Shown here piece by piece: positions 2,809 through 61,080 of a stretch of 64,000 nt of DNA (position 1 is the stretch's first letter; each line of letters starts with the position of its first letter). The stretch is from contig WFMF01000167.1 in the NCBI GenBank assembly GCA_011033025.1, positions 1 through 64,000 of the forward strand. Direction: 5' to 3'. The translations under genes were made by a program, and so were the position numbers. Origin of the DNA: Beroe forskalii (Eukaryota > Ctenophora > Nuda > Beroida > Beroidae). The notes beneath the pieces were generated by a model, which searched no databases, was not told the DNA's origin, and saw only the letters and a list, made by a program, of their open reading frames with translations.

Positions 2809-3085
2809 GCGGTGGCACTAATATACGGCTGTTTTAATCAGACGGCCGCAAGGCACAATTTATGGACGTTTTACAGGACTTTACAGCCATTATACAGCCC
2901 TTAGACGTATCTTTAAAGTTTTAAAGCAGCCATTTTGTCACTGTTACAACGCCGTGAACGGCTGTATATAGGTTTAAAAAGCCGTTTAAGTACCGTATAA
3001 CGGCCGCTTAATAACCGTATCATGCCAAAAAAGCCGTTTTACAGCCTTACATTGCCTTATAACGGCCGTAGAAGTGTCACTGCAG
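2809..3085. mobile_element. Small TIR-like element rich in ACGGC/GCCGT
   Basis: The ends read GGTGGCACTAATATACGGC on the left and, reverse complemented, CAGTGACACTTCTACGGC on the right, an imperfect terminal inverted repeat of about 18-20 bp. The interior repeats ACGGC and GCCGTTT motifs on both strands, so it can fold on itself. No ORF and no clear target duplication were found. It lies about 200 bp upstream of the FPGS start codon, within what may be promoter DNA. Confidence 0.5.
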
Positions 3086-3089
3086 TCCT

Positions 3090-4240
3090 CTAATTTTTAA
3101 TTAATTAACAGATTCAATTTCAAGACCAACAAAACACACAATATAAAGGAAAAATAAATCAATCAGGTACATACATACTTACATACTACAATACTTTGTA
3201 CTGTGTACATTATAAAATGATCAATAAATATTTTTTAAACAAGCGCTTTTCATTTTCATTAATTGGTTATTAAGTATATTCTTCAAGTTAATAAAGTTAA
3301 ACTCCAAAACTTAAAATCCAAACATAAATATATTATAGCGGTTGAGCTAAAAATCTTCAATATATAACATTTTCTTAATAAAGTTTTGTGCGAACTGTAA
3401 TACTGTAATTATCAATTTCGATCTTTTTACAAGTTTTATTTTAGATTTTATCCATGAAAAATATTCTCATGTCATAAATAGACATTGAAACATTACTATT
3501 GGAAAAATAATTCAATTGTGGCGGAGCTTTTATCAGAAGATTATAGGGTTACCCGACAGCAATACCTACAACACAATTATATAAATTTGAAACTGAAAGA
3601 TTAAAAAATGCATTAATAAACGATTCCAAAATATAAAAATATGAAATCAAACATAATTAAACACTGACAGTTTACGATAATTTGGTCCATAAATATGGGC
3701 TGAGGAGGGGTAATTCTGAGAATTGAAATTAAAAAATTAACATGAGCCATGATTGTAATTGGTAACAATGTCGTGACAGGTTCATTATTTGAAATGATCA
3801 GTAAAAATAAACACCACTTTTACAAAGCATTTTCTCTGAATGTGAAATACCTGTACATCTTTTCAACTCAGTGCCTATTGACTTATTGAGTATTGTCGCC
3901 CCAACTATGCCGGACTGCGCAACAAGTTCGTAAGACTTAATAATGTTTAGAATAATATGTAGATTTAATCCTTTATAATAATGATGATAATAATAAACTA
4001 TGGTAGCTTGGAGACAGCAACGAAAGAAGTTAAAACTACTAACCCTTTATGCACAGCTGTCTATTAGAGCTGAAATAAGACATTCAATCCAAAATTTCAA
4101 AAAACATGCATAAGGCATGTTGATTCAAAGCAGCATAATCAAAATGCTTTCAGATGCATATTTAATTATAATTTTCAATTAGTTGTTATATTAAAACTTT
4201 TATCTGGACTCTGGATTGTGGAAAATGTAACTTCTATGAT
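3090..4240. other. AT-rich intergenic DNA, no gene seen
   Basis: The sequence between the 5' end of FPGS and the 3' end of the next minus-strand gene is AT-rich, with scattered poly-A/T and an ATGATGATAATAATAA-like microsatellite near 3978-3996. I found no exon, RNA gene or long repeat in it. Confidence 0.4.
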
Positions 4241-4245
4241 CTCCT

Positions 4246-5445
4246 TTACTCTGGTCCTGTCTGTGGTCGGTAGTCCCTTCTTCCAGACAGCCACCTGTGA
4301 ACAGGAGTCACTGTTTCAGCAAGCAACCCAAAGTAAACCGTCTTAGTAGCAGCCAGCCAATCAAACATGACCTTAGAAAACCACTGGCAATTGTCCACAG
4401 ATCCGTGGTACTGCTGACCCAGTTCATCAGTATCTACAAGACGTTGGATGAGAGCCCTCACACTCCTGTCACCCTTACAAACATCCTCCGTTATGAGCTG
4501 AGGTCGCCAGTAAAACCAGGATTTGCACCTCAACTCACTCCCTACCTTGTCTCTGACATCATCCTGTGAGACACCATTCTGCAGGATAATGTAGGAGCTG
4601 TTCTTCTCAAGTGACCACCAGACCTCTTGCAGCGAATTGGTGTCCTTTGTATTGAACGTGATGTAAGAGTGGAAAAGGACCATGTTAGTGAAGAATTTCT
4701 CACTTAAAGGTACCTTGTGGACGTAAACATTTTGTATCTTGTTGCTACCTGAAGGGTCTAACTCAGTTTGCAGAACACCCAAGAGATCTTGACCAAAGTC
4801 CTGCCGACCAGTTGATCCAATCAAATCTATGAACCTGATCACACCTTTCCACGCATCACCAGTGCTTTGGAACCCTGGACTTCGAAGCACTCCCTGAAGC
4901 GGCCAGAAACTCTTGGTCTTTGCCAGTTTATCGAACATTTCCTTGCAGAAGTGAAAGGTATCCCCAGGATCACGCTCAAACTGAATCTCTACGATGTACT
5001 TATCATTGATGAACCTCATGAGGGACTCAACAGACGAATTGCTCTCATCCTGCCGTATTAACCTGGAACGTGCACCAAAAAGCTGGCCGTAACTCAAAAC
5101 ATCGTCATCAGGATAAGGATGCGTGAATTGACTGAGGAGCAACTCTCCCGGACCATCTTTGTAGTCAGCATTAAAGACCCACCACCTATCATCATCGGTT
5201 TGCAATGTGACTAAGTAGAAATCCGGGTAGTTGTAGTTTGCATAGGTTGATAAGGTTGATCTTATTCCTCGGTTGTTAAAACAACCGTAAACTTGAACCC
5301 TGGTAATTCTTTTGTTGGTGGAACCACCCAGCATGATTTCTTTAGCTCGGTCTAGACTTATTGCCTCATCCCAAGGAGGAATGATCCCCGTGCTGAAGCG
5401 AATGAGGTTGTGATATCTGACATCTCCTCCAAGGTAGCAAGACAT
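4246..5445 (-). CDS. Uncharacterised 399-aa protein with two related domains; H/NC motif in the second
   Basis: Single uninterrupted frame from ATG at 5445. I do not recognise a named family. The protein contains an internal duplication: residues ~73-183 align by eye with ~254-373. Matching segments include FHFCKEMFDKLAKTKSF (164-180) against CQWFSKVMFDWLAATKTVYF (353-372), SSVESLMRF (137-145) against RSVRALIQR (327-335), and FYLVTL (76-81) against HSYITF (259-264). The second copy has His259 at the start of a predicted strand and Asn352-Cys353 in DNCQWF, recalling the His...NCEHF arrangement of LRAT-type NlpC/P60 thiol hydrolases. The first copy lacks both residues at the aligned positions, so it would be catalytically dead. 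No signal peptide or membrane segment is evident. The enzyme-fold reading is inference; a Trp-rich structural duplication without catalysis is the alternative. A TTGCAG just before the ATG could be a splice acceptor for a noncoding exon. Confidence 0.78.
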   Translation of the reverse strand: MSCYLGGDVRYHNLIRFSTGIIPPWDEAISLDRAKEIMLGGSTNKRITRVQVYGCFNNRGIRSTLSTYANYNYPDFYLVTLQTDDDRWWVFNADYKDGPGELLLSQFTHPYPDDDVLSYGQLFGARSRLIRQDESNSSVESLMRFINDKYIVEIQFERDPGDTFHFCKEMFDKLAKTKSFWPLQGVLRSPGFQSTGDAWKGVIRFIDLIGSTGRQDFGQDLLGVLQTELDPSGSNKIQNVYVHKVPLSEKFFTNMVLFHSYITFNTKDTNSLQEVWWSLEKNSSYIILQNGVSQDDVRDKVGSELRCKSWFYWRPQLITEDVCKGDRSVRALIQRLVDTDELGQQYHGSVDNCQWFSKVMFDWLAATKTVYFGLLAETVTPVHRWLSGRRDYRPQTGPE

Positions 5446-13694: not shown

Positions 13695-16350
13695 ATATTA
13701 TTATTATTATTATTATTAAATCTAACAATAGTACAGTACATATAAGCATATACATACTATCATACCTCTTCACGTAGGCATAATATACACTTCCGATAAT
13801 TCTATCAACTTCAGATCACTGAATCAATAACTTGATAAACTAGTTAAGTCCTTGAAAGTAGACATAAATCATTTCGCAGGACGCAGTTTATACAGAGGTG
13901 CCCGACTCTGGTCACTATGCATTACCAAAATTTAATAAATACCAAAATTTAGTTCAATACCAAAATATAAATATATTTTACACTAGGATAGCAATCACGC
14001 GTTAAGCAGTTCTAAAGTAATGATGGCAAAGTCGCTCTTAACTTTAGAGTCCATGATCATATTTTAACATCCTGTCTTTGAATGTCTTTGAAAGTCTTTG
14101 AAAGTCTTTGAAAGTCTTTGAAAGTCTTTGAAAGTCTTTGAAAGTCTTTGGAAGTCTTTTACTCCTTTAGAGTCCTTTGAAGTCCTTGAAAGTCTTTGAA
14201 AATCTTCAGTGGCAGTTTTTTTTAACAGCTTTTGTCAATCCTAAGAAGTTATTATTGAGTTCTTCACAGTCTCCCAACAGCCTTCAGATTATGTAAGGAT
14301 CTTGATAATTTGTAAATAAAGCTTATAGCTCCCAGGTTAAGGTTAAAGGGTTAGGGATGACAATGTACATTTGTTGATATCTTTTCAAATCATGTGCCTA
14401 TTGGTGGCAATCTAGCAATTTATAACTACTTCATCGGATTTTCGGTCAGGATCCAGATAGCAAGGGTGTCTTTTCAAGAAAATCGTGCTGTGTCATGATG
14501 AACTTGGTTCTATTGATAAACATTTGGTGCAGTTTAGTGTTATCTGGCATCAAGATTTTTGAGACATAGTTGCTGTGATCATAGGCATTTCTATCAGAGG
14601 TCTGGTCCAGTATTTCTATAAGTTGTTGGAAGGTTGAGTCTTTAAGTTCATTACATTCCAATAATTGGTGGTAGGCTGTGTCTTTTTTGATTCGCTGCAA
14701 AAGGGACAAGAGTCTTCTCTTGGATCGTTGGTGACTGCTGCTCTTGAGTGGCCAAAGAGGAGGGAGTTGCCATGGATAAAGTCAAGCATATAGCTATCCT
14801 CCTTTTTTGTGGTGGAATGATTGAATAGGAGTGTTTTGTTGTCCATGGTTTTACCCCTTCTGAGGAGGTACAATGCTGTGTCAAGACATGTAGCACTAAT
14901 GTCTGAAATTGTCCCAAAGTTACTATATTTTCTGCATATTTCTTCTAGCCAGATTTTCTGCTGATAGGAATTGATTTCACATGTCTTGTACATTATATCG
15001 GGATTTTCTAAAGAAGTAAAATCAATCAAGTTTACTGACCTATAGCTGTTTGATTGTGTGACATAACCATTATGTGATTTCTGATGTTTTGCTTTTTGGT
15101 ATTTAAGGTATTTTTTGATAGCTAAGAGTTGGGAAAAGAACTCTTTATATAGGGAACCATCAACCTGCACCAATGTAGAGGTTACGAAGTCTTTATCAGA
15201 CATTGCCTTACATAGGAACTTAACTGTCAACACTTCTAGTTGTATATTGAGTGGTGGGATTTGTAGACTCATTTCTACTATGTCTCTGTTAGGGTTTAGA
15301 GTAGCCCCCGAAATCTTCATTATTATCTTGTTCCAGAAACTTTGAATATTTCAAGGTTGTTCCAGAGCCAAAGTGGGGATGCATAATGGAGCTTGGTAAG
15401 AATTAAGGCTTTGAGCAACAAAGACAGACTTCTCACATTTAGACCATGGTTTCTATTTGTAGATTTTGTAATCAAACCCCATTTTTTGTTGCAATCTTTA
15501 AGCTTTTGATTGGCATGTTCCTTGAAACTAAGGTTTTCATCGAGAATGACTCTAGGACTTTGGTTGATTTGACATACTTTATGGTTTTTCTGGTTGATTT
15601 TTTAGCTCTGGGATTCTATTCTCATTCGAGGGCGATTTGGTTTTGAGAATGATAGCTTCTGTCTTGTCTTTGTCACAATTGATTACCAATTTGTTCTTTA
15701 TACACCATTTCGTGAGATGGTCACATACCAATTGAGCTAGCTTATAGCATTCATCCAGACTGGTGTGTGAGATGAGTATAGTGCCATCATCAGCAAACTT
15801 AAAGCAGCTCATCCAGGACTGAATGGAGTGTGGAATGTCCTTTTTCATGTCTGTGATGTATATGAGGAATAGGATTGGAGAAAGAGCTGAACCTTGGGGC
15901 AGCCCAAATAGTGCACAAAGATGATCTAAGCCAGTGAATTTGTTGACAGACAGGCTAATCCTTCTATTGCTGAGGTAATTATTCAGCAGTCTTAGCATTT
16001 TTCCTGATACCCCAATTTTTCTAAGCTTGACTATGAGCCCTGGTATAGACCGAATCGAAGGCTTTTTTCAAAGTCTATGAAGAGTATAATGCCATTCAAT
16101 TTTTGGACGTTTTATCTCAGACAAATTGGCCAGGAGTCTGAATAGGTATCTGGTTGTTGATTTACCACATGCAAAGCCTTCTTGGTCCTCATCCTCTACA
16201 TCATCTGTGACTGACATGTATTGCCTAAGGCGGCTATCAAGTATCCTCTCCAGAATTTTACCTATGTATGAGGTGATGCTTATTGGTCTGTAGGACCCTG
16301 GCTTTAAGTATGTTGGCTTGCCTGCTTTTCTTATAAATCGTACATTAGAT
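13695..16350 (-). mobile_element. 5'-truncated Jockey/I-type LINE, copy 1
   Basis: Read on the minus strand this matches the 3' 2.7 kb of the element at 24-33.3 kb almost base for base. It starts inside the reverse transcriptase region (TCTAATGTACG at about 16349) and ends in a (TAA)n tail at 13695-13718. It holds RT pieces at 16397-16068 and 15998-15579, including the FADDGTI catalytic block and the LPQGSALSPILF motif, then a C-terminal part at 15320-14616 and 14709-14446 with the CPFC...H...C zinc knuckle. Frames are broken near 16080, 15600 and 14690. The break near 31950 in copy 2 is absent here, and the one near 14690 here is absent in copy 2, so the two copies decayed independently. No target duplication is visible. 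Confidence 0.92.
14076..14205 (-). repeat. 10-bp microsatellite in LINE 3' UTR
   Basis: About ten near-perfect TTTGAAAGTC units inside the 3' UTR of LINE copy 1. The same array in copy 2 (32778-32932, read as GACTTTCAAA) has about 15 units, so it varies in length between copies. Confidence 0.85.
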
Positions 16351-29600: not shown

Positions 29601-32537
29601 TCCCTTAATGCCATAGTTACTTAATTTGCATAATAGTATTTTGTGGTCTAGGGTATCAAATGCTTTACTAAGATCTATAAAAATTCCTAAAGTATGCATT
29701 TTTAATTTCTTTTGCTCTTCTATGTAAGCAACTGGTGCCCCAATACGTGGCCATCTCCCAATTATTCAAAGAATTCTGGTAAAAAGCCCAGAAAAACAAG
29801 TTTCCACGAAAGTTCCAAATTGGAAAGCAGCAAACTGGGAGGGGTGGTCACAGGAGATCGAAACTTCCCTCAGTTACCTTCAAAATGGTCAAATGAGTCA
29901 GATTGATAATGGAAAGCAATTATGGGATCAATTCCTTGGAATTATCCAAAAAGCTAATGAGTCATTCATCCCCTTAAAAACTATTTCTATTCACTCAAAA
30001 CCATTTTGGACTGATGCACTAACTATTATGGCCAAGGATCTCATCGCATCAAGGTCAGTGTATAACAAAAGATCCACTCCATACAATAAAGAAATCTTTG
30101 ACCAGAGTAAATTGAAACTCAAAGAAGAACTGACAAAACAAAAAAACGACTGGATAAAGAAAAGAACAGAATCTCTCAACATCAAAGATACGACACTATT
30201 CTGGAGAAAGTATAAAAGGATATTTGGTGCAAACCATGACAAGTACATTGGTAACTTGCTTGATGGAAAAAGTTTACTGACATCAGATAGTGAAAAAGAA
30301 CAGCTGTTACATAAGGCTTTCTTTACTGGTAACCATTTGAAAGGTCAACAAGTAAATCATTCCCATGATGAGGAAACCAACACCAATCATAAAGCCATCA
30401 TTGCAAATTTTCATAACAATAATTTACTGTCACACGCCTCGCCAATAAATGAACATATATCCTTGGAGGAAATTAAATCAGCTATCAAAAGACAGGAAAC
30501 TACTGACAAATCAATGGACCCAGATAGCCTACATCCATGCATATTAAAAAAGCTGGGGACAAATGCTCTTCAAGCACTACATCAAATGTTCAACTGGTCC
30601 TTTGAGACTGGTAATTGGATTTGGGACAAATCTAATGTACGATTTATAAGAAAAGCAGGCAAGCCAACATACTTAAAGCCAGGGTCCTACAGACCAATAA
30701 GCATCACCTCATACATAGGTAAAATTCTGGAGAGGATACTTGATAGCCGCCTTAGGCAATACATGTCAGTCACAGATGATGTAGAGGATGAGGACCAAGA
30801 AGGCTTTGCATGTGGTAAATCAACAACCAGATACCTATTCAGACTCCTGGCCAATTTGTCTGAGATAAAACGTCAAAAATTGAATGGCATTATACTCTTC
30901 ATAGACTTTGAAAAAGCCTTCGATTCGGTCTATATACCAGGGCTCATAGTCAAGCTTAGAAAAATTGGGGTATCAGGAAAAATGCTAAGACTGCTGAATA
31001 ATTACCTCAGCAATAGAAGGATTAGCCTGTCTGTCAACAAATTCACTGGCTTAGATCATCTTTGTGCACTATTTGGGCTGCCCCAAGGTTCAGCTCTTTC
31101 TCCAATCCTATTCCTCATATACATCACAGACATGAAAAAGGACATTCCACACTCCATTCAGTCCTGGATGAGCTGCTTTAAGTTTGCTGATGATGGCACT
31201 ATACTCATCTCACACACCAGTCTGGATGAATGCTATAAGCTAGCTCAATTGGTATGTGACCATCTCACGAAATGGTGTATAAAGAACAAATTGGTAATCA
31301 ATTGTGACAAAGACAAGACAGAAGCTATCATTCTCAAAACCAAATCGCCCTCGAATGAGAATAGAATCCCAGAGCTAAAAATCAACCAGAAAACCATAAA
31401 GTATGTCAAATCAACCAAAGTCCTAGGAGTCATTCTCGATGAAAACCTTAGTTTCAAGGAACATGCCAATCAAAAGCTTAAAGATTGCAACAAAAAATGG
31501 GGTTTGATTACAAAATCTACAAATAGAAACCATGGTCTAAATGTGAGAAGTCTGTCTTTGTTGCTCAAAGCCTTAATTCTTACCAAGCTCCATTATGCAT
31601 CCCCACTTTGGCTCTGGAACAACCTTGAAATATTCAAAAGTTTCTGGAACAAGATAATAATGAAGATTTCGGGGGCTACTCTAAACCCTAACAGAGACAT
31701 AGTAGAAATGAGTCTACAAATCCCACCCCTCAATATACAACTAGAAGTGTTGACAGTTAAGTTCCTATGTAAGGCAATGTCTGATAAAGACTTCGTAACC
31801 TCTACATTGGTGCAGGTTGATGGTTCCCTATATAAAGAGTTCTTTTCCCAACTCTTAGCTATCAAAAATATCTTTAATACCAAAGAGCAAAACATCAGAA
31901 ATCACATGATGGATATTGGAATGTCACAATATCAAACAGCCATAAGTCAGTAAACTTGATGGATTTTACTTCTTTAGAACATCCAGATATAATGTACAAG
32001 ACATGTGAAATCAATTCCTATCAGCAGAAAATCTGGCTAGAAGAAATATGTAGAAAATATAGTAACTTTGGGACAATTTCAGACATTAGTGCTACATGTC
32101 TTGACACAGCATTGTACCTCCTCAGAAGGGGTAAAACCATGGACAACAAAACACTCCTATTCAATCATTCCACCACAAAAAAGGAGGATAGCTATATGCT
32201 TGACTTTATTCATGGCAACTCCCTCCTCTTTGGCCACTCAAGAGCAGCAGTCACCAACGATCCAAGAGAAGACTCTTGTCCCTTTTGCAGCGAATCAAAA
32301 GACACAGCCTACCACCAATTATTGGAATGTAATGAACTTAAAGACTCAACCTTCCAACAACTTATAGAAATACTGGACCAGACCTCTGATAGAAATGCCA
32401 ATGATCACAGCAACTATGTCTCAAAAATCTTGATGCCAGATAACACTAAACTGCACCAAATGTTTATCAATAGAACCAAGTTCATCATGACACAGCACGA
32501 TTTTCTTGAAAAGACACCCTTGCTATCTGGATCCTGA
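26601..32537 (+). pseudogene. LINE copy 2 ORF2 (endonuclease, reverse transcriptase), split
   Basis: Starts at ATG 26601 (MNIAQINISK). Endonuclease landmarks: QINIS, IQESG, GSVYTAP, YGDFNARNQDWG (after a frameshift near 27020), GGGSVIDLVLA, then GAPIRGHLPII at 29740 beyond the inserted element. The RT frame 29729-31953 has FIDFEKAFDSV, GLPQGSALSPILF and the catalytic FKFADDGTI. A frameshift near 31950 leads into 31956-32537, which carries the C-terminal knuckle CPFC-x7-H-x4-C. The protein would nick target DNA and copy its RNA at the nick. Not functional as read because of at least two frameshifts and the 2.5-kb insertion. Confidence 0.9.
27253..29728 (-). mobile_element. Second, unrelated LINE inserted in minus orientation
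   Basis: It breaks the host LINE between codons for EVELF (27252) and TGAPIRG (29729). The minus-strand frame 29729-28731 encodes an RT fragment starting just before FIDLSKAFDTLDH, with FGVPQGSVLGPLLFILYIND and the catalytic LFADDTNIF, continuing to about 28451 in another frame (TYKAPWLWNNF). This is CR1/L2/Jockey-like but distinct from the host RT. The 5' end is cut inside RT. The 3' end at the left carries two copies of a 17-bp unit CAATTCTTTTACTTAAA (minus strand), which is a short tandem tail. The 1.2 kb between RT end and tail is noncoding. Confidence 0.85.
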
Positions 32538-33904: not shown

Positions 33905-34012
33905 AAACTTAGGTCGATCGAAAATTAGGTTTAATGCAAAAACGCGCACAATTTGTACAAATGTCGCGCGTTTGCGCGTTGCAGCGCCATTAACTAGACA
34001 AAAAAGTATCCG

Positions 34013-34087
34013 CGCGTTCCAGAATTTCCGAAAAATTGCCACTTCACACGCGCGCGTGTGTGAAGTGGAAATTTTTCTGAAATCCTG
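34013..34087. other. Hairpin at the uninterrupted insertion site
   Basis: CCACTTCACACGCGCG and GTGTGTGAAGTGG form the inner arms, and flanking TTTCnGAAAAATT sequences extend the pairing to about 36 bp each side. In copy B the 4.5-kb element at 56222-60742 sits at this hairpin centre. Confidence 0.8.
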
Positions 34088-35724
34088 GTTTTGCCCAAAG
34101 GTAAGACGGCGACATTGTGTGCATGGGAATTTGTATTTGGACGTGCAGTAATTAAGTTCACAATTAATGGAATGCAGCCACCTGTATTCTACCCGGAATT
34201 TTGTTGGCAATGAAAAACACTCAGAAGACAGGGAATCATGAACTCTTTCATCAAACCCTATGACGTTTCATTACATTGTAATGTGAGTAGCAACGACGTT
34301 TCGTTTGGGAAATCTGATTTTAATTTCCCCAACCCCTTTGCCCATGTGACTGGCATATGATCAAGGTATATTCCACACACTTTTCCTGGATAGACTCTTA
34401 CTGACAGTGTCACATATTATGTTTCTCTTCGGAAAAAAGCAGATACTCGAAGGGTGATGGAATGACCGGTATAAAGAGCCAAGTGTAATGATCCACAAAT
34501 TATGAAGCCCGTTAATCAATCCATATCTCTTGCGACAAAGAGATAGGGATAAAAAACATAAGGAAAATCGTTTGTTCATGGATCTGAACTTTTTACCGGT
34601 TCTTCCCGCATCCCTCTCGACGTTTTACTTGCAACCAATAAACCCGGATAAACTGGAAATCCAAGTCACGGCTGCTTATATAGAATCATCGTGAAGAAGG
34701 TAGGAGAAATCGACTGGTCAGAATATCATAGCATGGTGACTGGTGACTGGTCAGTGGATGGAAGCGAGAGCAAAGTGGTGACATATCAAGCATATTTCAC
34801 GTTCGGTAAACCAAGCTTCACTGTCAAGGAGAATATAAGATTCTGCCCATTCACATTCAATACATTTTACAGACGTCAAGCTTCATTTGAATTAGGGATC
34901 GTTCGCATATACCGTAATAAATTTCGAGGTCTCGAAATCGTTAAACAATGGGATGAAAACCCCTCCCTCTCCTTTGATGATTACGTTATGTGTGAAAAAT
35001 CCCTAACAAATTGATACTAAACCAATTAAAACACAGTTATAATAAGTAAAGTGAGTGATTCATGGAAAATAAATACAAGCTTACAAGTACAGTCTTCAGT
35101 TGAAAACCACCAAACACGAATAGTCGAATAAGTCCCACGACATGATACTCACAATATTGATACAAAATTATCAATAGTATTGCAATAATACTGCAATTTT
35201 AAAATTAACTGTAAAGAAAGTGCCTTCAAAGAACTTCCCAACATACTAGCATATGTATCAAGATTTGCCGAAAATTAAGCAATAGGTATTTCTCCTCTAA
35301 TCTATGCCATGGATAAGTTTCCAAATTCTGTGGACCAGTGATCCTGATGAAGTAAAGTCATTCCGACCGACAGAAAAGTGATATTGTCAGTTCCTTCAAA
35401 ACGTGGACGACCTTCACCCGTGGTTGAAGTTGATGCTCACTCCCGTAGGACCCCGGTGGTCTCCCGCAGTGATTCACTCGAAAACATAACCCCGCTGGGT
35501 CGGATAGGAAACGGCAGATTCGGATGGCGCTTGTCAATTGTGCCATGCATCGTCGCACTCAGAGCAGATTTCCGTAGGCGTTTCGGGATGATAACTGAGG
35601 AAGAATAAGATAAGTAAATGCCGGTTGCCTCTTAAATCAATAGACAAATTAACAAACACGTCATTTAAATGGAGAGAATAGCACCATATATTACGTAATC
35701 ACCTAGGGGGACGGGGTTCCTAAT

Positions 35725-35935: not shown

Positions 35936-36240
35936 TCAGCGACAGCAATGTGGATAGCCTGCTCCTAGTCCAGAAGGATGGATTACAAGAGAAGGCCCCT
36001 GGATTCCAACTAGTTCAGAAGGTTCTTGTGAAAGGTGGTCGTCTTCCCAGGAAAGAGCCCATAAAAGAGGGGTAGATGCCAGTGGTCAGTGAAGAGGCGA
36101 GGTGCCGATTTGAAGGTTCTATCCATAATGGAGTGTTCTGCATTACATGTTATTGTAACAAATACAGCTACTGTTAACTTGATTTCGAGGGGGCAGGGGG
36201 GGGTTAAAATCAGCCAAAAATGAATTACGTAATATGTGAA

Positions 36241-37690
36241 TTGATAATGTGGGAGAAAGGAAGGGATAATAGAATTGAATTGAGAAGGGGAGAATAATTG
36301 AGATCTGTTTCCCGTATTCCATGCTCGAGCAACCGGCACGCACCACTTCCTATATCATATTCGTGGGTCCATCTCATCAGAAGGGGGCCGTTACAGTACC
36401 CTCTCACTTTGAAGGCTGAGCAGATATTGCTGAGACAGAGTCAAGGTGGCTTCAAATCACTGTATGAGAAGATATCACAAATGTCAACACCTTAAGATAG
36501 GAACCATGAGTGCGGGTCATCTGGAATAAATGTGGGTTTGTTCTGGGTAAGTATTGGGAATCGTTTCGGAATTGAAGTGAGGGTCAAGTAGCGAAATGCA
36601 ATTGAACTCGGGCGGGGGAGAACAATTGTGAATTGATAATGTGGGAGAAAGGAAGGGATAATAGAATTGAATTGAGAAGGGGAGAATAATTGTGATCTGT
36701 TTCCCTTATTCCATGCTCGATCAACCGGCACCACTTCCCATATCATATTCGTGGGTCCATCTCATCAGAAGGGGGCCGTCACAGTACCCTCTCACTTTGA
36801 AAGCTGAGCAGATATTGCTGAGACAGAGTCAAGGTGGCTTCAAATCACTGTATGAGAAGATATCACAAATGTCAACACCTTAAGATAGTAACCATGAGTG
36901 CGGGTCATCTGGAATAAATGTGGGTTTGCTCTGGGTTTTGGGAATCGTGTGTGAATTGAGGTGAGGGTCAAGGAGCGTAATGCAATTGAACTCGGGCGGG
37001 GGAGAACAATTGTGAATTGATAATGTGGGAGAAAGGAAGGGATAATAGAATTGAACTGAGAAGGGGAGAATAATTGTGATCTGTTTCCCGTATTCCATGC
37101 TCGAGCAACCGGCACTATTTCCTATATCATATTCGTGGGTCCACCTCATCAGAAGGGGGCCGTTACAGTACCCTCTCACTTTGAAGGCTGAGCAGATATT
37201 GCTGAGACAGAGTCAAGGTGGCTTCAAATCTCTGTATAAAAATGTATCACAAATGTCAACACCTTAAGATAGGAACCATGAGTGCGGGTCATCTGGAATA
37301 AATGTGGGTTTGCTCTGGGTATTGGGAATCGTGTGTGAATTGAAGTGAGGTGCAAGGAGCGAAATGTAATTGAACTCGGGCGGGGGAGAACAATTGTGAA
37401 TTTACAATGTGGGAGAAAGGAAGGGATAATAGAATTGAATTGAGAAGGGGAGAATAATTGTGATCTGTTTCCCTTATTCCATGCTCGAGCAACCGGCACC
37501 ACTTCCTATATCATATTCGTGGGTCCATCTCATCAGAAGGGGGCCGTCACAGTACCCTCTCACTTTGAAAGCTGAGCAGATATTGCTGAGACAGAGTCAA
37601 CATAGCATCAAATGTCTTAGAGGAGAAGGTATCATAAATGTCAACAGCTTAGTTTGTCAACTGTGCTCTGCCCATCGAGTCTTCTAAATC
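36241..37690 (+). repeat. 384-bp satellite, about 3.5 units
   Basis: GATCTGTTTCCC(G/T)TATTCC recurs at 36302, 36694, 37078 and 37462, a period of 392 and then 384 twice. Each unit carries CTCGAGCAACCGGCAC, TCTCATCAGAAGGGGGCCGT and TGCGGGTCATCTGGAATAAA. Both strands are open for 60-100 codons per unit, which is why ORFs recur; none looks like a protein gene. The same satellite lies inverted at 47283-47753 beside the N gap. Confidence 0.92.
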
Positions 37691-37711
37691 CAGACTGACA
37701 AACTAAGTCGT

Positions 37712-38600
37712 GAGACTTCGTTTTGGGCGCAAAAAAGAATCGCAAAGGCCATGTTTTTTATACAATTCTCCTTGAATATATGCCCTTAAATGCTCAGGAA
37801 CAAAGTTATTGGCGAAAAACTAATTTTGGTCATTCGCAAGACATGGCAGATGTAATTTTTTTTTTTGTATCTCGGCCCAGGAAGGTTGTAGAGACTTCGT
37901 TTTGGGCGCAAAAGAATGGCAAAGGTCATGTTTCTATACAATTCTTTCTGGATATATGCCCCATAGTGCTCAGGAACGAAGTTATGGGTCGAGAACCACT
38001 TGTTCAGTGAAGCGCAATATACAGTTTGGAGGCAATTTTTGTATCTCGGCCCAGAAAAGTCGTAGAGACTTCGTTTTGGGCGCAAAAGAATCGCAAAGGC
38101 CATGTTTTTATACAATTCTTCCTGAATATATGCCCTTAAATGCTCAGAAACAAAGTTATTGGCGAAAAACTAATTTTTTGGTCATTCGCAAGACATGGCG
38201 GATGTAACTTTTATATCTCGGCCCAAAAAAGTCGCAGAGACTTTAATTTGGGCGTAAAAGAATCGCAAAGGCCATGTTTTTATGTAATTTTTACAGAGAA
38301 CTTCCTCTAAAATATTCAAGAACAAAGTTATGGACCATAAATTGATTTTCAGTCATTTGCCAGACATAGTATCTCAGCCCAGGAAGTTCGTAGAGTCTTC
38401 GTTTTGGACGCAAAGAAGCAGTAATGGCTATGTTTTTATAGGACTTGTTATTAATAAACATTTTATGCCAAACAATATTCCTATTGAGCTATGGCAATAC
38501 ACTGATTTTCGGTCTTTCACAAGACATGGCGGATGCAATTCGTGTATTTTTGTACCATAACTCGGCCCAGATAGTTTGTAGAGACTAGAGACTTCGTTAT
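37712..38600 (+). repeat. ~175-bp tandem array, left (plus) half
   Basis: About six units recognised by GAGACTTCGTTTTGGGCGCA at 37712, 37891, 38065, 38237, 38393 and 38587. Two unit types alternate: one with CATTCGCAAGACATGGC and one with GTGAAGCGCAATATACAGTT. The inverse array is at 40140-41320. Confidence 0.88.
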
Positions 38601-40140: not shown

Positions 40141-41320
40141 GTTTAATAAGAGGTGAGTGGTGACTGGTGAGGGATTGAAGGTAGGGATTTTGTAATTTTA
40201 GTTTCTATTCGAAAACTAACAAGTCGTATATAAACATGGTCATCGCGATTCACTTGCACCAAAAACGAAGCCTCTACCACCTTCCCGGGCCGAGGTACAA
40301 AATTAGCCTCTGCTATGTCTGTCAAATGACTGAAAATCAATTTTTGGCCCATAACTTTGTTCCTGAATATTTTAGAGGAATTTCTCTGTAATAATTACAT
40401 AAAAACATGGCCTTTGCGATTCTTTTACGCCCAAATTAAAGTCTCTGCGACTTTTCTGGGCCGAGATACAAAAATTACATCCGCCATGTCTTGCGAATGA
40501 CCAAAAAATTAGTTTTTCGCCAATAACTTTGTTCCTGAGCATTCAAGGGCATGTATTCAGGAAGAATTGTATAAAAACATGAACTTTGCGATTCTTTTGC
40601 GCCCAAAACGAAGTCTCTACGACTTCTCTGGGCCGAGATACAACAATTGCCTCTGAACTGTATATTGCGCTTCACTGAACAAGTGGTTCTCGGCCCATAA
40701 CTTTGTTCCTGAGCATTTAAGGGCATATATTCAGGAAGAATTGTATAGAAACATGACCTTTGCGATTCTTTTGCGCCCAAAACGAAGTCTCTACGACCTT
40801 CCTGGGCCGAGATACAAAAATTACATCTGCCATGTCTTGTGAATGACCAAAAATTAGTTTTTTGCCAATAACTTTGTTCCGAGCATTTATTCAGGAAGAA
40901 TTGTATAAAAAAACATGGCCTTTGCGATTCTTTGCGCCCAAAACGAAGTCTCTAGTGACTTTTCTGGGCCGAGATACAAAAATTGCCTCCGAACTGTATA
41001 TTGCACTTCACTGAACAAGTGGTTCTCGGCCCATAACTTTGTTCTTGAGCACTATGGGGCATATATCCAGAAAGAATTGTATAGAAACATGACCTTTGCC
41101 CATTCTTTTGCGCCCAAAACGAAGTCTCTACGACCTTCCTGGATGAGATATAAAAATTACATCCGCCATGTCTTTAAGAATGACGAAAAATTAGTTTTCG
41201 CCAATAACTTTGTTCCTGAGCAATTAAGGCATATATTCAAGGAGAATTGTATAAAAACATGGCCTTTGCGATTCTTTTTGCGCCCAAAACGAAGTCTCTA
41301 CGACCTTCCTGGGCCGAGAT
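40140..41320 (-). repeat. ~175-bp tandem array, right (minus) half
   Basis: About seven units carrying TGCGCCCAAAACGAAGTCTC at 40442 (variant), 40597, 40776, 40936, 41113 and 41281, the reverse complement of the array at 37712-38600. Unit types alternate as on the left. Together they form a 3.6-kb imperfect palindrome around a 1.5-kb spacer. Confidence 0.88.
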
Positions 41321-42559
41321 ACAGAAAATCAGCCAAGTTTATTACAGAAAAAAGGGCGTGGCCGATTTGGGCCTGTTGCTAACAAAAATTTCGTTGGCAA
41401 CAAGGCCCATTTTGTTTTTGATGGCCTTAATTACCGAAATCAGTCGAGAAAACGCTTTTAACAAAGAAATCTAACGGATGGAGGTTTGGTCTCTGACTAT
41501 GGCACATATTAAATATTTCGATCAAACTCGCTACTTTTACTGAAAACACACCCTATAATTAGATTATTATCTGTCCACTGCTCAAAATACAAGGTTGCTA
41601 TTTATTGAAGCCGATATGATGTTGAATCAACTTTCTAATTTAACGCAATTTAGTTTATAATAATTACGGCAATACTTATAAATGGTGAACTAACCCTGAG
41701 TCAATGATGAGGTTAAGGTGACTGGAGCTGTCAGTTGCAATCAGCGGAATGGGTCAGGACTCAGATAGGGAAGCAGGAATTAGGGGTTGTAAATAGCGCC
41801 AATCTCATTGGTTGACCTGAAAATGAGATCTTTGATAGTATGGCATGTTAGAATATGTTTTACTTTAAACTACCCAGTGTAGCAGGCTCATAGCCAAGAT
41901 TCTTCTGGTTAGGGTCCTGCACGGTGAGCAAGTTATGGTAGTGGTTTGGGAAGCAGCCCCAAAATGTTCCAGGACCCAAACATAATAAAGCACTAATCTA
42001 TCTGATTAATCCTAGCAAATTTCATCATTTTAAAAGCATATTATTGAAAGGATATATATTTAACACGTTTCTAAATGTACTCTCATTCTATTGTTATAGT
42101 AATAATTTGCAGGGTGTGGTAAAAAATTATAAAGAATTGGGCATTTTTTCACAAGTGAAATCAAACAATGCAATTTGGGTCAGTCTTGTGTCAGCAAAGT
42201 GTTATCAGTGCAGCATGCAAACAATTGAACTGAAACGAAATCCTTAAATGACCATAAAGTATATGAAATTCTATGAAATAGCCAGTTTTCAGTCGAGACT
42301 ACAATTGCATGAATCAATGTAAATAAATAATGTGTCAACATTAGTGGGGGGAATGTCACTGTCCCAAATGTCCCTGTCCCAATTTAATTTTTTTGAGTTA
42401 GGGACTGTCATTTGAGACATTTGGGACAATTGGGACAAATGAAAAAGTGGGAAAAAATAAGTGATTTTCAAATTTGTCCATTCAAATAATTTCTGACTAT
42501 TTCTGTCAGAAATTTATATCTATGCTACTAAACATGGTAAATTTAGCAATCTGTCTAGA

Positions 42560-53159: not shown

Positions 53160-56085
53160 GTTGGAACAGGGTTGCTAAATAGTTAAAGAGTAAATACGTG
53201 CAACAATCGTCAAAAATTATACACGTATTTATCTTCAAAATACGTGACTTACTATGTAAAAATTCAAAATTGGGGAGGAAATATATGGCACATCTGCGTT
53301 GGTGTCGTATTTTTGCGTATGTTTTTAAAAAATACCTTGGTGGGGGTTCCTCCCCACGACAGTGGGGACCACTAGTCGGGGGAGTGACTCTCCACTGAGC
53401 CCTGCTTTAGTTGAGTGAGTCCCGCAGTCTAAGACAACAACTTCACCCATCGTGTGTCATCCTGTATAAAAGGGAGGAGACTGAGAGAAATGTCCACAAT
53501 TTGTGTACACATGCATCGATCGATCACGATGAAGGGATTGAAAAGGCCGCATTTTACAGTGCGTGCAATTTACTTCTTTTCTTTCCAAAGAATTTCAGTC
53601 GGAATTGAAACGCTTTCATGATTACCGATCGGTCCTTGTGCACTCATATGGGTTATGACTTGACAAGTTGACAATCTGGTAGAGAGGATGACTATAATGT
53701 TCACTGTTCTTTAATGAACATGGGTGAAGTTTCACGAAAGATAATTGGTGACTGAGAGGACTCCTGCATGTTTTAGAATGGTGTACTGATAACGCCCTGC
53801 TTGATTAAGAACAAAATGATAAAGCAGTCTCTGAAATTTCGTGAAAAGTTTAAAGTACAATTGCATGGTAGATTTAAGTCTTAAAGGCGACGAAAATTTA
53901 ATGACTCGCTTATAAATACCTAACCTACTACTCTACTATACTGAGCTGCGTTATTTCATTATTTTAATGTTTATTGCATCGAAAATTCAAAACTCATGGT
54001 GCTAAATCTCTAATAAATAAGATTACATTCCAATATTTTGAGAATGAAGGTTAAGAACTTTTAGAAGAAGAAGAATGAAGATTTAGAGCTGTTAGAATGA
54101 GAATTAAATTTTCTCAAGTGCTTCACAAAATAATGCAGGACGTTAATAAATGAATCATTATTCACAAGAGGATTAAAACGCAGTGATTACTTTAATTGTA
54201 ATCATGGGACTCTTATTCAACAACCCGATCCGTGAAATCAGAATACTTTATTAAGAGTGGACTATTATTAAATTAATAACGCCGATACACTTAACATTAT
54301 TTCTAGAAATGAATTTAACAGATTTAGTTCAGGGGTCGCTAGAATATTAGATAGTATTGGGTTTCTTTTTCGAAGCTAAGGACAGCGAATCTGTTCAGAG
54401 GACTGCAATTATGGTTAACCTTGTGCAAAAAATTCTAATTTGATCCAGACTTAAGTCTAAACTACTAAACTAGAGTAAAGCTGCTAAAGACTTTTTATAG
54501 CAAGGTAGTACTAGTAACTTACTGATCAAAATGAGCCTAGGTATGTTGACAAGCGTAAAATTCTTCTAAAATGAAGGTATTGAAATGAAAACTTATGACT
54601 TACAAATCACAAATTACAGACAATGTGCACATATTTTATACGGTTCTATCATGTGATCTGAAGTGTTGTTTCGACGGAAGATTTTTATCTCTCGCATGCC
54701 CTGCAAGCACGTAAATTTGCAAGTAATTTGATTTGTGTGACTGAAATGGATAATTTTAACCTGCGAAGTAATTTAAGGAATTTTCGCCCTGAGAAGTTCC
54801 CATCGGACTTTCATTTCGGTTTAACAAAAACATGATCAAATTTGAGCGAGAGTGCAGTTGGAACTTTGGCTGAATATTTTCTCAATCCCCATGTGAAAAT
54901 TTGAATTATTTTAATCTTATTTCTGCTGTTGCATACCGAGTAACCTGATAATGCAAAGAGGTTCAGCGTGGAGAATAATTATCTGTGGAAATGAAAATAA
55001 CAGCTGTTTTGGGCTTTTGCCAACAGTTAACAATAACGGCCATAACATAATGCAGTGCAAAAAGAATATTATGAATATTTTAACAAATTATGTGCGTTGT
55101 AATTCATGATTCAATAGCTTACATCCCTTACGACAATATAATGGCTTATGAGAATCGCAAAATGAAAACAAATCAGCTCAAAAACAATAAAATGTGGAAA
55201 CGTAACTGGTCCCTTTTAGTTGTTATAATTATTCCCAATTTAATGATAGAGCCTTATTACATAGCATCTCACGTTATTGTCCTTAGGTAATTATTATTCT
55301 GCAAGTTACCTATAGCTATCCATACTTCATAATTAAGCAAGGCTCACCTTGATTGGTTCATGATAACTACGCTAGAAAGACGAACTCACTGAAGGCTATA
55401 ATTAGCGTATAGATGCTAATTGGGCTTTTCAATAAATTGGTTTTAATGGAAACTTCTAACAATCTAACAAGATATTAGGATCGGGTGCGACTCTTTGTCT
55501 ACGAAGTTTTTCTTCTCATGTACGACAATAGCAATTTTTCGATTTTAATAATAAAAAAATAGGGGGGTTCATGCTGGCAGGGGGAAGGCGGCATAGCTGC
55601 TGCTGCCTCCCCCTTTTGGACGAAAAATGTTGTTAATTCTGTCAGAATGAGAGCCTTGAGCCGAATCAAAATAAAACATTGAATGTTACTTGCGACCTCC
55701 TTTTTGGAAATCTTGCTACGCCCCTTGGGAGGGTTTTATTTTGGGGAGGTTCCCCCAATCGATTGGGGAGGTTCCCCTAATCGTTTATTCGACAAATCGT
55801 GTTTAAAAGTCTACAGTGTATTCATATTATCAGTAAGTTCATTCGATAACGGGAAGACTTAGCAATATCCATATGTACATTAAACACAAGGAAATATTAG
55901 TAGAATCACACCACAATTGACAGTATTCAAAAGGTAGACACATATTGATATATGTACATTGTACAAGCAAAAGTAAAACAAAACGATGTGTTGACAATAA
56001 AATACCTTTAAAAATTGATACTGGAATATACGTCTAGTGACTAGCTTAAATCTAATTGAATGTAGATAAGGCGGTTGCATCGACT
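53160..56085. other. Gene-poor AT-rich stretch
   Basis: No exon, RNA gene or repeat array could be supported. Minor notes: a GTGGGGGTTCCTCCCCACGAC hairpin near 53339-53370, and GGGGAGGTTCCCC repeated in tandem near 55742-55778. The missing 5' exon of the actin-like gene may lie here or further upstream. Confidence 0.4.
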
Positions 56086-56744
56086 TGGGTCGATCGAAAA
56101 TTAGGTTTAATGTAAAAACGCGCACAAATGTCGCGCGTTTGCGCGTCGCAGCGCAATTAACTAAACAAAAAAGTATCCGCGCGTTCCAGAATTTCCGAAA
56201 AATTGCCACTTCACACGCGCGCAGGACATGTTTTACGGGACTTGTGTCAAGCCGCGCCGCGAATTTCAACACTCAAAAATAAGCGCTTCTGCGCGCGCAT
56301 TGTACTTCTCCAAGCACGCTGCAAAATTTATCAACAATGCACAATCCCGTTCACACTATAGTATCAGTCGCAGTTCCGACTTGTTGTCTATCTCTTTATA
56401 GTTGTAAGTTTACGAAGTAAGTTTCAGCTATTGCTCTATTGATTTTGACACAGTTTTGAAATTTGGGTATCAAATGTATAGTGCTTTGTTTGATTTTGAT
56501 TGTCCCTCAAAACCATCAATATTCAAATATGTCTGCTTGAAAGCAATAATAAAAGATGGACATACAATTTCAGCCTGATGATGTCGAACGTTTTAACTTG
56601 ATACAAAACATGTTTTTGAGGTGGCTAACCTAAAGTAAGGCTTTAAAATTGCTAATCAAACTGAAAGTTTGGTGGCATGTGCGTGAACAGTGTGTGAAAT
56701 GGGAATCAAAGTCTCATGTAGGTATGAGACGTGGCAATTTGAGG

Positions 56745-58225
56745 CGATATATTACCCAAAACTTCCCAATGCAATAGTTCCAAACTAACAACACTCAACC
56801 CTTAGCCACGCCAAAATCCCACGTATGTGAGAAAAATGTGTATCAACTACCAGGCCATGGGACGTGGCAATTGGAGATCACATATGCCTCCAAAACGTAT
56901 TATTATGATGAGAAAACATATTTCAGAGTTCCTGAGTAACAAACCAACCAACTCCAACTTTCGGCCACGCCCAAATCCCAGGTCCCATAAATGCGCCGCG
57001 AAAAGTGTGTCAAATGTTTCCAAAAGTTCCATGGATGGGACGTAGCGATTTGAGAGACCAGATATATGACCTGAAAACATATTATTATGATGAGATAATA
57101 ACATATTTTAGAGTTCTGAGGTGCTAAACAACCACGCCCAACCCGGCCACGCCCAAATTCCATGAATGCTCGAAAAGTGTGTCAAATCTATGTCAAGCCA
57201 TATAGGACGTGGCGATTTGAGCCAGATATGCCTCCAAAACGTATTATTATGGAAAAACATATTTTAGAGTTCCTGGTGCCAAACCAACCATCTCAACTTC
57301 AGTACGCCCAAATCCCACGTCCCATAAATGCTCGAAAAGTGTGTCAAATCTGTGTCAAGCCATACGTGGGACGTGGCGATTTGAGACCAGATATATGCCT
57401 CCCAAAACGTATTATTATGATGGGAAAACATATTTTAGAGTTCTGAGTGCCAAACCAACCATCTCAACCCTCGGCCACGCCCAATCCACTGTCCCATAAA
57501 TGCTCGAAAAGTGTGTCAAATCTGTGTCAAAAGTCCTACGGATGGACGTGGCGATTGAGACCAGATATGCCTCCGAAACGTATAATTATGATGGGAAAAC
57601 ATATTTTAGAGCTCCCTGAGTGCCAAACCAACCATCTCAACTTTCGGCCACGCCCAAATCCCCCACGTCCCATCAATGCGCGAAAGTGTGTCAAATATGT
57701 GTCAAAAGTCCCATGGATGGGACGTGGCGATTTGAGACCAGATAGGCCTCAAAATGTATTATTATGATGGAAACATTTTTAGAGTTCTTGAGTGCCAAAA
57801 CCAACCATATTTTCCCTCGGCCACGCCCAAATCCCACGTCCCATAAATGCACAAAAGTGTGTCAAATGTGTGTCAAAAGTCCCATGGATGGGACGTGGCG
57901 ATTTGAGGCGATATATGACCTGAAAACGTATTATGATGGATAACATATTTCAGAGTTCCTGGAGTGCCAAACCAACCATATCCAACTTTCGGCTACGCCC
58001 AAATCCATCCCATAAATGCGCGAAAAGTGTGTCAAATATGTGTCAAAAAGTCCCATGGATGGGACGATTTGAAACCAGATATGCCTCAAAACGTATTATG
58101 ATGGGAAACATTTTTAGAGTTCTGAGTACCAAACCAACCATCTCCAACTTTCGGCCACGCCCAAACCTAATCCCACGTCCATAAATTTGGGGCGGCGGCC
58201 AAATATGTGTCAAAAGTCCATGGAT
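56745..58225 (+). repeat. 176-bp satellite, left array
   Basis: About eight units with GGGACGTGGCGATTTGAG, CAAAACGTATTATTATGATG, CAACTTTCGGCCACGCCC and GTGTGTCAAATATGTGTCAA. Many small indels compared with the right array. Confidence 0.9.
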
Positions 58226-60720
58226 GGGACGTGGATTTGGGCGTGGCCAAATCAGGAACTCGAAACATGTTATCCCATCATAACAATACGTTTTCAGGTT
58301 ATATCGCCTCAAATCGCCACGTCCCATCCATGGGACTCTTTGACATATTTGACACACTTTCGCGCATTTATGGGACGGTGGGATTTGGGCGTGGCCGAAA
58401 GTTGGAGATGGTTGGTTTGGCAATCAGGAACTCTGAAATATGTTATCCCATCATATAATACGTTTTGGAGGCATATCTGGCCTCAAATCGCCACGTCCCA
58501 TCCATGGGACTTTTTGACATATTTTTACATTTATGGACGTGGGATTTGGGCGTGTGGCCGAATGTTGGATATGGTTGGTTTGGCACTCAGGAACTCTAAA
58601 AACATGTTTTCCCATCATAATAATGGTTTGGCACCATATCTGGTCTCAAATCGCCACGTATGTTTTTCCCATCATAACAATACGTTTTGGGACGGTATTT
58701 TGGGCTGGCCGGAATGGTTGGTTTGGTACATGGCTTGAAATATGTTTTCCCATGACAATAATTTTGGCGGCATATCTGGCTCAATCGCCACGCCCATTAC
58801 AGGGACACAATTTTCGGGATTTGGGCGCTGGAGGGTTGGGCGGTTGGTTTGGCAATTAGGAACTCTAAAAACATGTTTTCCCCATCATAGTAATACGTTT
58901 TGAGGCATATCTGTCTCAAATCGCCACGTCCCATCCATGGGACTTTTTGACACATATTTGACACTTTTCATGCATTTATGGGGACGTGGGATTTGGGCGT
59001 GGCCGACAGTTGATATGGTTGGTTTGGCACTGTGAACTCTGAAATGGCGTTATCCCATCATAATAATACGTTTTCAGGTCATATATCGCTCAACCGCCAC
59101 GTCCCATCCATGGGACTTTTGACACACATTTGACACACTTTTTGTGCATTTATGGGACGTGGGATTTGGGCGTGGCCGAGGGTTGGGCGGTTGGTTTGGC
59201 ACTCAAGAACTCTAAAAAATGTTTCCCATCATAATAATACATTTTGGAGGCCTATCTGGTCTCAAATCGCCACGTCCCATCCATGGGACTTTTGACACAT
59301 ATTTAACACACTTTTCGCGCATTTATGGGACGTGGGATTTGGGCGTGGCCGAATGTTGGATATGGTTGGTTTGGCACTCAGGAACTCTAAAATATGTTTT
59401 CCCATCATAGTAATACGTTTTGGAAGCATATCTGGTCTCAAATCGCCACGTCCCATCCAAGGGACTTTTGACACATATTTGAAACACTTTTCGCACATTT
59501 ATGGGATGTGGGATTTGGGCGTGGCCGAAAGTTGGAGATGGTTGGTTTGGCACTCAGGAACTCTAAAATATGTTTTCCCATCATAGTAATACGTTTTGGA
59601 GGCATATCTGGTCTCAAATCGCCACGTCCCATCCATGGGACTTTTGACACATATTTGACACACTTTTCGCGCATTTATGGGACGTGGGATTTGGGCGTGG
59701 CCGAAAGTTGGAGATGGTTGGTTTGGCACTCAGGAACTCTAAAATATGTTTTCCCATCATAATAATAAGTTTTGAGGCATATCTGGTTCTCAAATCCCAC
59801 GTCCCATCCATGGGACTTTGACACATATTTGGACACACTTTTCGCGCATTTATGGGACGTGGGATTGGGCGTGGCCGAAAAGTTGGAGATGGTTGGTTTG
59901 GCACTCAGGAACTCTAAAATATGTTTTCCCATCATAATAATAAGTTTTGGAGGCATATCTGGTCTCAAATCTCCACGTCCCATCCATGGGACTTTTGACA
60001 CATATTTGACACACTTTTCGCGCATTTATGGGACGTGGGATTTGGGCGTGGCCGAAAGTTGGAGATGGTTGGTTTGGCACTCAGGAACTCTAAAATATGT
60101 TTTCCCATCATAATAATAAGTTTTCAGGTCATATATCGCCTAAAATCGCCACGTCCCATCCATGGGACTTTTGACACATATTTGACACACTTTTCGCGCA
60201 TTTATGGGACGTGGGATTTGGGCGTGGCCGAAAGTTGGAGATGGTTTGTTTGGCACTCAGGAACTCTAAAAATATGTTTTCCCATCATAGTAATACGTTT
60301 TGGAGGCATATCTGGTCTCAAATCGCCACGTCCCATCCATGGGACTTTTGACACATATTTGACACACTTTTCGCGCATTTATGGGACGTGGGATTTGGGC
60401 GTGGCCGAAAGTTGGGGATGGTTGGTTTGGCACTCAGGAACTCTAAAATATGTTTTCCCATCATAATAATACGTTTTGGAGACATACTTGGTCTCAAATC
60501 GCCACGTCCCATGGCTTGACACAGATTTGACACACTTTTCGAGCATTTATGGGACGTGGGATTTGGGCGTGGCCAAGGGTTGGGCGTGGTTGGTTTGGCA
60601 CTCAGGAACTCTAAAATATGTTATCTCATCATAATAATATGTTTTCAGGTAATATATCGTCTCAAATCTCCACGTCCCATCCATGGGACTTTTGACACAT
60701 ATTTGACACATATTTGACAC
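58226..60720 (-). repeat. 176-bp satellite, right array (inverted)
   Basis: About 14 units in the opposite direction, e.g. CGCCACGTCCCATCCATGGG at 59268, 59444 and 59620, a period of 176 bp. Units between 59200 and 60480 are nearly identical, suggesting recent amplification. Each unit also contains its own small palindrome GTCCCATCCATGGGAC. Confidence 0.92.
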
Positions 60721-61080
60721 AAGTCCCGTAAAACATCGCCTCCACGCGCGTGGAAATTTTTCTGAAATCCTGGTTTTGCCCTAAGGTAAGACGGCGACAT
60801 TGTGTGCGTGGGAATTTGTATTTGGACGTGCAGTAATTAAGTTCACAATTAATGGAATGCCGCCACCTGTATTCTACCCGGAATTTTGTTGGCAATGAAA
60901 AACACTCAGAAGACAGGGAATCATGAACTCTTTCATCAAACCCTATGACGTTTCATTACATTGTAATGTGAATAGCAACGACGTTTCGTTTGGGAAGTCT
61001 GATTTTAATTTACCCAACCCCTTTGCCGATGTGACTGGCATATGATCAAGGTATATTCCACACACTTTTCCTGGATAGAC

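Follow-up and report, generated by a model that had tools for sequence, protein, structure and literature searches.

Four described systems come closest to the element considered here. Tetris, an apparently non-autonomous foldback element of Drosophila virilis, carries ~220-bp tandem arrays in both of its inverted arms (PMC4079207). The number of its units varies, a 37-bp stretch is common to the unit and the terminal domain, and the repeats have been suggested by its authors to serve as transposase-binding sites; an autonomous partner of Tetris was not found (PMC4079207). In Galileo, a P-superfamily element of Drosophila, the tandem repeats contain transposase (THAP) binding sites, and the THAP domain binds these repeats (PMC3688188). 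We describe an element made of two opposing satellite arrays between short inverted ends, found in a window of 64,000 nucleotides of the ctenophore Beroe forskalii (positions 1-64000 of contig C211, in an assembly of 216 Mb in 1134 contigs), together with its relatives in the same assembly.

The ctenophore element resembles Tetris in having arrays in both arms, a variable number of units and a target duplication (8 bp) within the 8-10 bp reported for Tetris (PMC4079207). It differs in layout, since the arrays of Tetris lie in inverted repeats of up to 1735 bp, and Tetris also has an inner domain and flanking domains that reach 866 bp (PMC4079207), whereas the copies read here have a 29-bp inverted end, a 430-bp domain on the left side only, arrays that meet at one common junction and arms of up to ~24 units. 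Only three structurally complete copies of Tetris were found (PMC4079207), compared with 16 copies with matching duplications here. With Galileo it shares foldback-like arms, and the internal tandem repeats with additional transposase-binding sites in that element correspond to the mechanism that we propose below; Galileo differs in its P-type transposase and in inverted repeats of 0.5-1.2 kb (PMC3688188). The Cg_HINE elements of oysters are likewise dispersed and non-autonomous, with a core of satellite-like arrays, but are classed as Helentrons, in contrast to the inverted end repeats, 8-bp duplications and head-to-head arrays of the present family (PMC7492417). Tm1, a Mutator/Foldback element of root-knot nematodes, has composite inverted repeats of variable length and non-autonomous forms, and is set apart by its 9-bp duplications and its identified Phantom-like transposase (PMC3169594).

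No description of this family came up in our literature search, which is not a claim that none is in print. The origin and dispersal of satellites is an old question. In the single genome considered here, one and the same satellite palindrome is inserted many times, its target duplications are intact and its array lengths vary, and sister families have satellites that diverge at the points where the ends do. What stands out is the number of duplication-bounded copies, the common palindrome with its variable arrays and the parallel change of end and satellite. Two ideas become testable in this material, namely that amplification of transposase-binding sites can give rise to satellites and that mobility depends on the length of the arrays. 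Mobile palindromes could plausibly serve as rearrangement breakpoints as well.

A dispersed family of satellite palindromes

A preliminary description of the window, made from its sequence alone, had proposed that opposing arrays of a 176-bp satellite (about 8 and 14 units), together with 500 bp of single-copy DNA, are bounded by terminal inverted repeats (TIRs) of about 29 bp and an 8-bp direct repeat, and behave as a single transposon. This anatomy was confirmed nearly in full (Table 1). By aligned length, the arrays comprise about 8.3 minus-strand and 13.5 plus-strand units, and an inverted alignment of the two arms gives 85% over 1491 bp. The TIRs are 29 bp long and agree at 26 bases, the three mismatches being those that distinguish left from right ends throughout the family, and the 8-bp repeat CACGCGCG is present at both borders as an exact match. 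The stretch outside the arrays also exists but, at ~430 bp, is slightly shorter than described; it lies on the left and has no counterpart on the right, where the end directly abuts the array.

When the 23-base core of the end was searched for in the whole assembly with two mismatches allowed, 52 places were found (51 exact and one with a single mismatch), and the reversed core, used as a control, gave none. Across the family the sequence is CAGGACATG at left ends and GAGGCGATG at right ends, with few exceptions (C734, C285, C658), and the two keep distinct outer bases family-wide. Left-type and right-type ends with at most two mismatches were located at 79 and 57 sites, 136 in total, against 0 and 2+2 in the controls. 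Related ends define further families beside that of the window copy, family A: the sister family B has CAGAACATG or the CAGGACATG/GAGGCGATG form, with GCGAC replacing GGGAC, and family C, known from one locus on C35, has CAGAAGATG at both ends. A third end type (GTGACAA), read at the ends only, was seen on C203 and C725.

A left and a right end on the same contig were treated as a pair when less than 10 kb separated them. Family A yielded 17 such pairs, of which 14 have identical 8-bp flanks and two match at seven of the eight positions; in family B, identical flanks were found in 9 of 13 pairs. An 8-bp duplication is therefore present in 25 of the 30 pairs, and is exact in 23. As a control, each left flank was compared with the right flank of every other copy, giving 2 matches of at least 7/8 among 870 comparisons and none that was exact. 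The 25 good target duplications have no strong consensus. In a comparison of up to 900 bp of flanking DNA from 26 left and 19 right ends, no flank matched that of another copy (E 1e-10) among the 14 of 17 family-A pairs that were compared, the other three being short ends only. The preliminary description had called for an assembly-wide search of this kind, and its outcome supports a mobile TIR transposon: the end core is dispersed, the 8-bp flanks match in 16 of the 17 pairs found on a single contig, and the 14 full copies hold arrays in both orientations. We estimate a probability of roughly 0.85 that the element is a class II DNA transposon that moves by cut and paste, is non-autonomous and has a foldback-like design.

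Array length, inverted junction and turnover

The 14 full copies span 1689-6259 bp and vary mainly by satellite number, with 1.2-10.9 minus and 3.8-23.5 plus units by aligned length. The switch of orientation was examined at 21 loci; none was seen in C518 and C251, and 19 loci, including the window copy, were readable. In 14 of these, unit positions 58 and 120 (122 in C1080) mark the switch, and 15-17 bases overlap there; a degraded form of the same place (65/120) is seen in the window copy, C351 has the mirrored form, and C580, C273 and C572 differ. The overlapping bases form a short motif of which the unit contains copies in both orientations, suggesting a single strand switch.

Comparison of units in 13 copies (C273 was left out) revealed different behavior at the edge and in the middle of the array. 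The last full plus unit is 0.939 identical to the last units of other copies (n=78) and 0.893 to the inner units of its own copy (n=111), which suggests that the edge of the array is inherited with the end while the middle turns over. Inner units are about equally alike within a copy (0.932) and between copies (0.928, 800 sampled). Unit number thus varies, whereas the junction and the last full unit on the right are specific to their position. Across 25 left ends, the mean major-base frequency is 0.992 in the first 29 positions and 0.915-0.984 further in, with a mean pairwise identity of 0.919 over the first 450 bp. The window copy is among the more diverged, with its nearest relative at 0.922, compared with 0.96-0.99 for most others. 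Sites matching the unit core with up to three mismatches number 796 in the assembly; 304 lie in 30 family-A loci and 31 in the family-B loci L037, L038 and L040, and none was found in L029, L030, L031, L036 or L039.

Correspondence between satellite and end motifs

The interiors of the elements were searched for all 7-mers contained in each left end. For selected motifs, expected counts were obtained by first-order Markov resampling (20 draws). The motifs had first been picked after reading the sequences, and the scan checks that choice. The B1 set comprises four stretches and C a single locus. Own-family peaks fall in the inner part of the end, at positions 15-24. GTGTCAA occurs at 7.7 per kb in A interiors, compared with 0.12 in B1 and 0.24 in C; GGGACAA occurs at 3.3 per kb in B1 interiors, compared with 0.22 in A and 0.24 in C; and in the C interior ATGTCCC and GTCCCGA reach 7.3 and 4.4 per kb, compared with 0.30 and 0.04 in A. 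Observed counts exceed the Markov expectation 34-fold for GTGTCAA in A, 5.9- to 33.6-fold for GGGACAA in the four B1 stretches and 46-fold for GTCCCGA at the C locus. The interior of L030 likewise fits its own GGGACAA end, with 7 occurrences against 0.7 expected. Some further end words are common in one or another of the families, namely ATGTTTT in A, GACGTGG in both A and B1, and GGACATG in both B1 and C. The match to the family's own motif is therefore a tendency with clear peaks and not a clean rule.

The two half-motifs of each end, GGGAC...GTGTCAA in A and GCGAC...GGGACAA in B1, recur together in the units, the second half-motif of the unit being inverted relative to the end. The composite GTGTCAA-A-GTCCC was counted 150 times in A and never in B1 or C, and GGGACAA-A-GTCGC 36 times in B1 and never in A or C; mixed composites were absent from A and B1 and occurred once in C. 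The A and B1 units are homologous lengthwise, with 20 identical bases just before the motif site, and differ at that site in a way that mirrors their ends. Judged from these sequences, satellite and ends seem to have changed together in related families. These matching changes in sister families lend support to the earlier suggestion that the array may have grown out of the terminus, whichever direction the descent took.

Proposed mechanism and classification

We propose that a transposase encoded elsewhere recognizes the ends and that it makes staggered cuts of 8 bp when the element is inserted, a scheme that explains the ends, the duplications and the dispersal. The palindrome would have arisen once, by a strand switch at the short motif present both ways in the unit, and would then have spread by transposition; the arrays would grow and shrink in their middle through unequal exchange or repair slippage. 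There is about an even chance, on our analysis, that the end part recognized by the transposase was multiplied to give the satellite unit and that the arrays act as secondary binding sites. A broader version is more tentative. It posits a lineage of satellite-carrying transposons in which the satellite is a multiplied transposase-recognition site evolving in lockstep with the ends, as three families each with arrays of its own motif might indicate, and in which new satellites arise by competing for transposase and spread as mobile palindromes.

The class II TIR assignment draws on matching inverted ends at both borders and on a duplication of fixed length at different sites. Opposing tandem-repeat arms able to fold back, as in foldback elements, are present, but long inverted repeats continuous to both termini are not, the left array standing well inside the left end. 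Because this one defining feature of foldback elements is missing, we file the family under satellite-bearing TIR transposons, as a variant. Elements of the hAT group generate 8-bp target duplications with a preference for T at position 2 and A at position 7; the length fits, but both bases are found in 3 of the 25 duplications and each in 7 of 25. Miniature inverted-repeat transposable elements (MITEs) are small, under about 0.8 kb, a size that all 14 full copies (1689-6259 bp) exceed. Helitrons and Helentrons produce no target duplication, unlike the present elements with their 8-bp duplications.

Weighing the evidence

Several observations weigh against the interpretation as a mobile lineage with matched ends and satellites. 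The flanks of the family-A pair on C580 are mismatched and four of the 13 family-B pairs fail (C292, C346, C327:69 and C595), the two ends on C595 probably not being partners but mispaired; by eye, the flanks of the family-C locus show no matching 8-bp duplication. Eleven left ends (C247, C313, C155, C368, C734, C869, C358, C285, C636, C445, C691) and seven right ends (C518, C913, C251, C219, C461, C159, C878) lack a partner in the sequence retrieved, and on C658 the left end is clipped and a right end was not found. Four insertions are split across contigs (C247/C518, C734/C913, C358/C219 and C580/C461), as recognized by four exact matches of 8-bp flanks among 12 left and 8 right rows, with C580 in both; the contig C461 terminates within its element, and the splits may be either misjoins at hard-to-assemble arrays or rearrangement breakpoints. 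The preliminary description had set ends without partner or duplication against its own reading, and such ends are thus seen in part, beside 16 of 17 pairs that match. Its readable uninterrupted site fared similarly: the joined flanks of the window copy do match element-free paralogs, in the window (Table 1), on C345 (83%) and on C170 (81%), but none of the three is perfect, each having ~8-11 bases too many where the flanks join. No transposase with ends of the element's type was found among five families searched genome-wide against the 136 end sites, and no matched pair encloses a match. As to the motifs, the A and B1 satellites are homologous and hence not independent origins, C rests on one locus, and the partial locus L031 has a GTGACAA end with an interior in which GTGTCAA occurs 12 times (0.6 expected) and its own motif twice (0.5 expected).

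Could the structure be an ordinary satellite palindrome, an array inverted in place whose end repeats and direct repeat arose by chance? Units about as alike within as between copies are what a classical satellite would give, but the same ends, the left/right difference, the duplications and the junction recur at many loci, and the 100 exact unit-core sites listed of the 796, on contigs C155 to C358, were all judged by eye to lie inside or at most 7 kb from a family-A end; we regard this explanation as extremely improbable. Only marginally better is the prospect that the junction near 58.2 kb, for which the preliminary description had considered a misassembly, is a misjoin of repeat reads. The split insertions and the flanks of C580 make misjoins likely somewhere in the family, yet a junction place common to 14 of 19 copies and present in degraded form in the window copy argues strongly against one here, as does the exact duplication of that copy. 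The agreement of satellite and end motifs may reflect gene conversion, or shared descent of the end and the adjoining unit, without any binding function, an account to which we give slightly less than even odds. A right end that directly abuts the array, homology of the A and B1 units along their length and the exception at L031 are all in its favor, whereas the left end lies ~430 bp from the array and still carries the same family-specific inner motif. Moreover, the change from GGGAC to GCGAC goes along with that from GTGTCAA to GGGACAA, and mixed composites are absent from A and B1; conversion between the two ends could still account for this joint change.

For the transposon itself, membership of a Mutator-like lineage, as the authors of Tetris suggested for that element, is a possibility that we hold to be somewhat doubtful. 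Tetris, with duplications of 8-10 bp, was so assigned (PMC4079207), and one of 46 genomic matches to Mutator-like (MULE) transposases, on C296, lies 5.3 kb inward of an unpaired left-type end; however, ~0.3 such neighbors are expected by chance from 136 end sites and 46 matches, and the Mutator/Foldback element Tm1 has duplications of 9 bp and not 8 (PMC3169594).

Search for a transposase

None of the 46 MULE matches falls in a matched pair. The 23 hAT matches in the genome include none between matching ends, the nearest being 25.7 kb from an end, and the 35 Merlin-type (PF12762) matches include none in a matched pair; the nearest of the latter are on C609, 1.4 kb from an end site with two mismatches, on C203, 2.3 kb outside a family-B element, and on C914, 11 kb inward of an unpaired right-type end. 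Profiles PF21787 (P type) and PF18758 (Zisupton/KDZ) gave no match in the genome, and the control genomes were silent too. An autonomous partner was sought among the sister-family loci L036-L038 (long), L039 (short) and L040 (middle part), which showed arrays and frames of short length. A comparison with Pfam of nine frames, taken from L031, L036, L037 and L038, revealed no transposase domain and gave a single weak match, below the cut-off, to Seryl_tRNA_N (E 0.0046).

Two of these loci have additional repeats in their interior. The family-B element L037 contains two adjoining minisatellite arrays with a 21-bp period in its middle (3204-5387). In the family-C element L036, the region between the arrays (2863-5176) holds short repeats of the GAATTCAGGT/GAATTCACCT type that look mirrored and are perhaps a nested inverted-repeat insertion.

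Insertion sites

The paralogous target (window ~34.03-34.07 kb, L034 and L035) is an imperfect inverted repeat whose arms, in the window paralog, are CACTTCACAC and GTGTGAAGTG. It is within this inverted repeat that the element's left flank stops, and the right arm is missing from the right flank of the window copy. A candidate empty allele for C247 was considered, as an element-free copy of its left flank lies ~5.9 kb further on in the same contig; only ~6 bases beyond the duplication match the right flank on C518, and it was not counted.

Homologous flanks were found on C1024 and C691, on C580 and C445, and on C461, C518 and C285. In the first of these (L010 and L029) the left flanks are 90% identical over 256 bp and have the same eight border bases, yet the interiors are different; C691 is not a full family-A copy, the match extending over about its first 80 bp.

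The window copy and its surroundings

Table 1. Features of the window copy and its element-free paralog (window positions).
Feature	Position	Strand	Remarks
Whole element, window copy	56222-60742		4521 bp
Left target-site duplication	56214-56221		CACGCGCG
Left terminal inverted repeat	56222-56250	+	29 bp, CAGGACATG type
Left domain outside the arrays	56251-56680	+	~430 bp, without long frame, common to family copies
Left satellite array	56680-58234	-	About 8 units of 176 bp (8.3 by aligned length); well-matched units start at 56857
Inverted junction	58224-58234		Degraded form of the one common to 14 other copies; short motif present both ways in the unit
Right satellite array	58224-60710	+	About 13.5 units
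Terminal partial unit of right array	60606-60710	+	Unit positions 1-105, joined to the right end
Right terminal inverted repeat	60714-60742	-	GAGGCGATG type
Right target-site duplication	60743-60750		CACGCGCG
Paralogous element-free site	33907-34365	+	Matches the joined flanks at 93%, with ~10 additional bases where they meet

The left flank of the element includes a piece (56066-56134) that is present at dozens of places, often as inverted pairs ~320 bp apart, and has the look of a further, small element with inverted repeats. A second pair of opposing arrays, with a period of ~174 bp and inverted alignments of up to 92%, occupies 37705-38367 and 40226-41329; a simple scan detected no convincing end repeats around it, and an array with a 384-bp period (36235-37651) adjoins it.

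The frames in the window include an actin match and a reverse-transcriptase match, both above the cut-offs. The stretches at 15579-16067 and 29728-32537 are pieces of one reverse-transcriptase element of the non-LTR (non-long terminal repeat) type; their translations share long identical stretches, and the latter piece contains an RVT_1 match.

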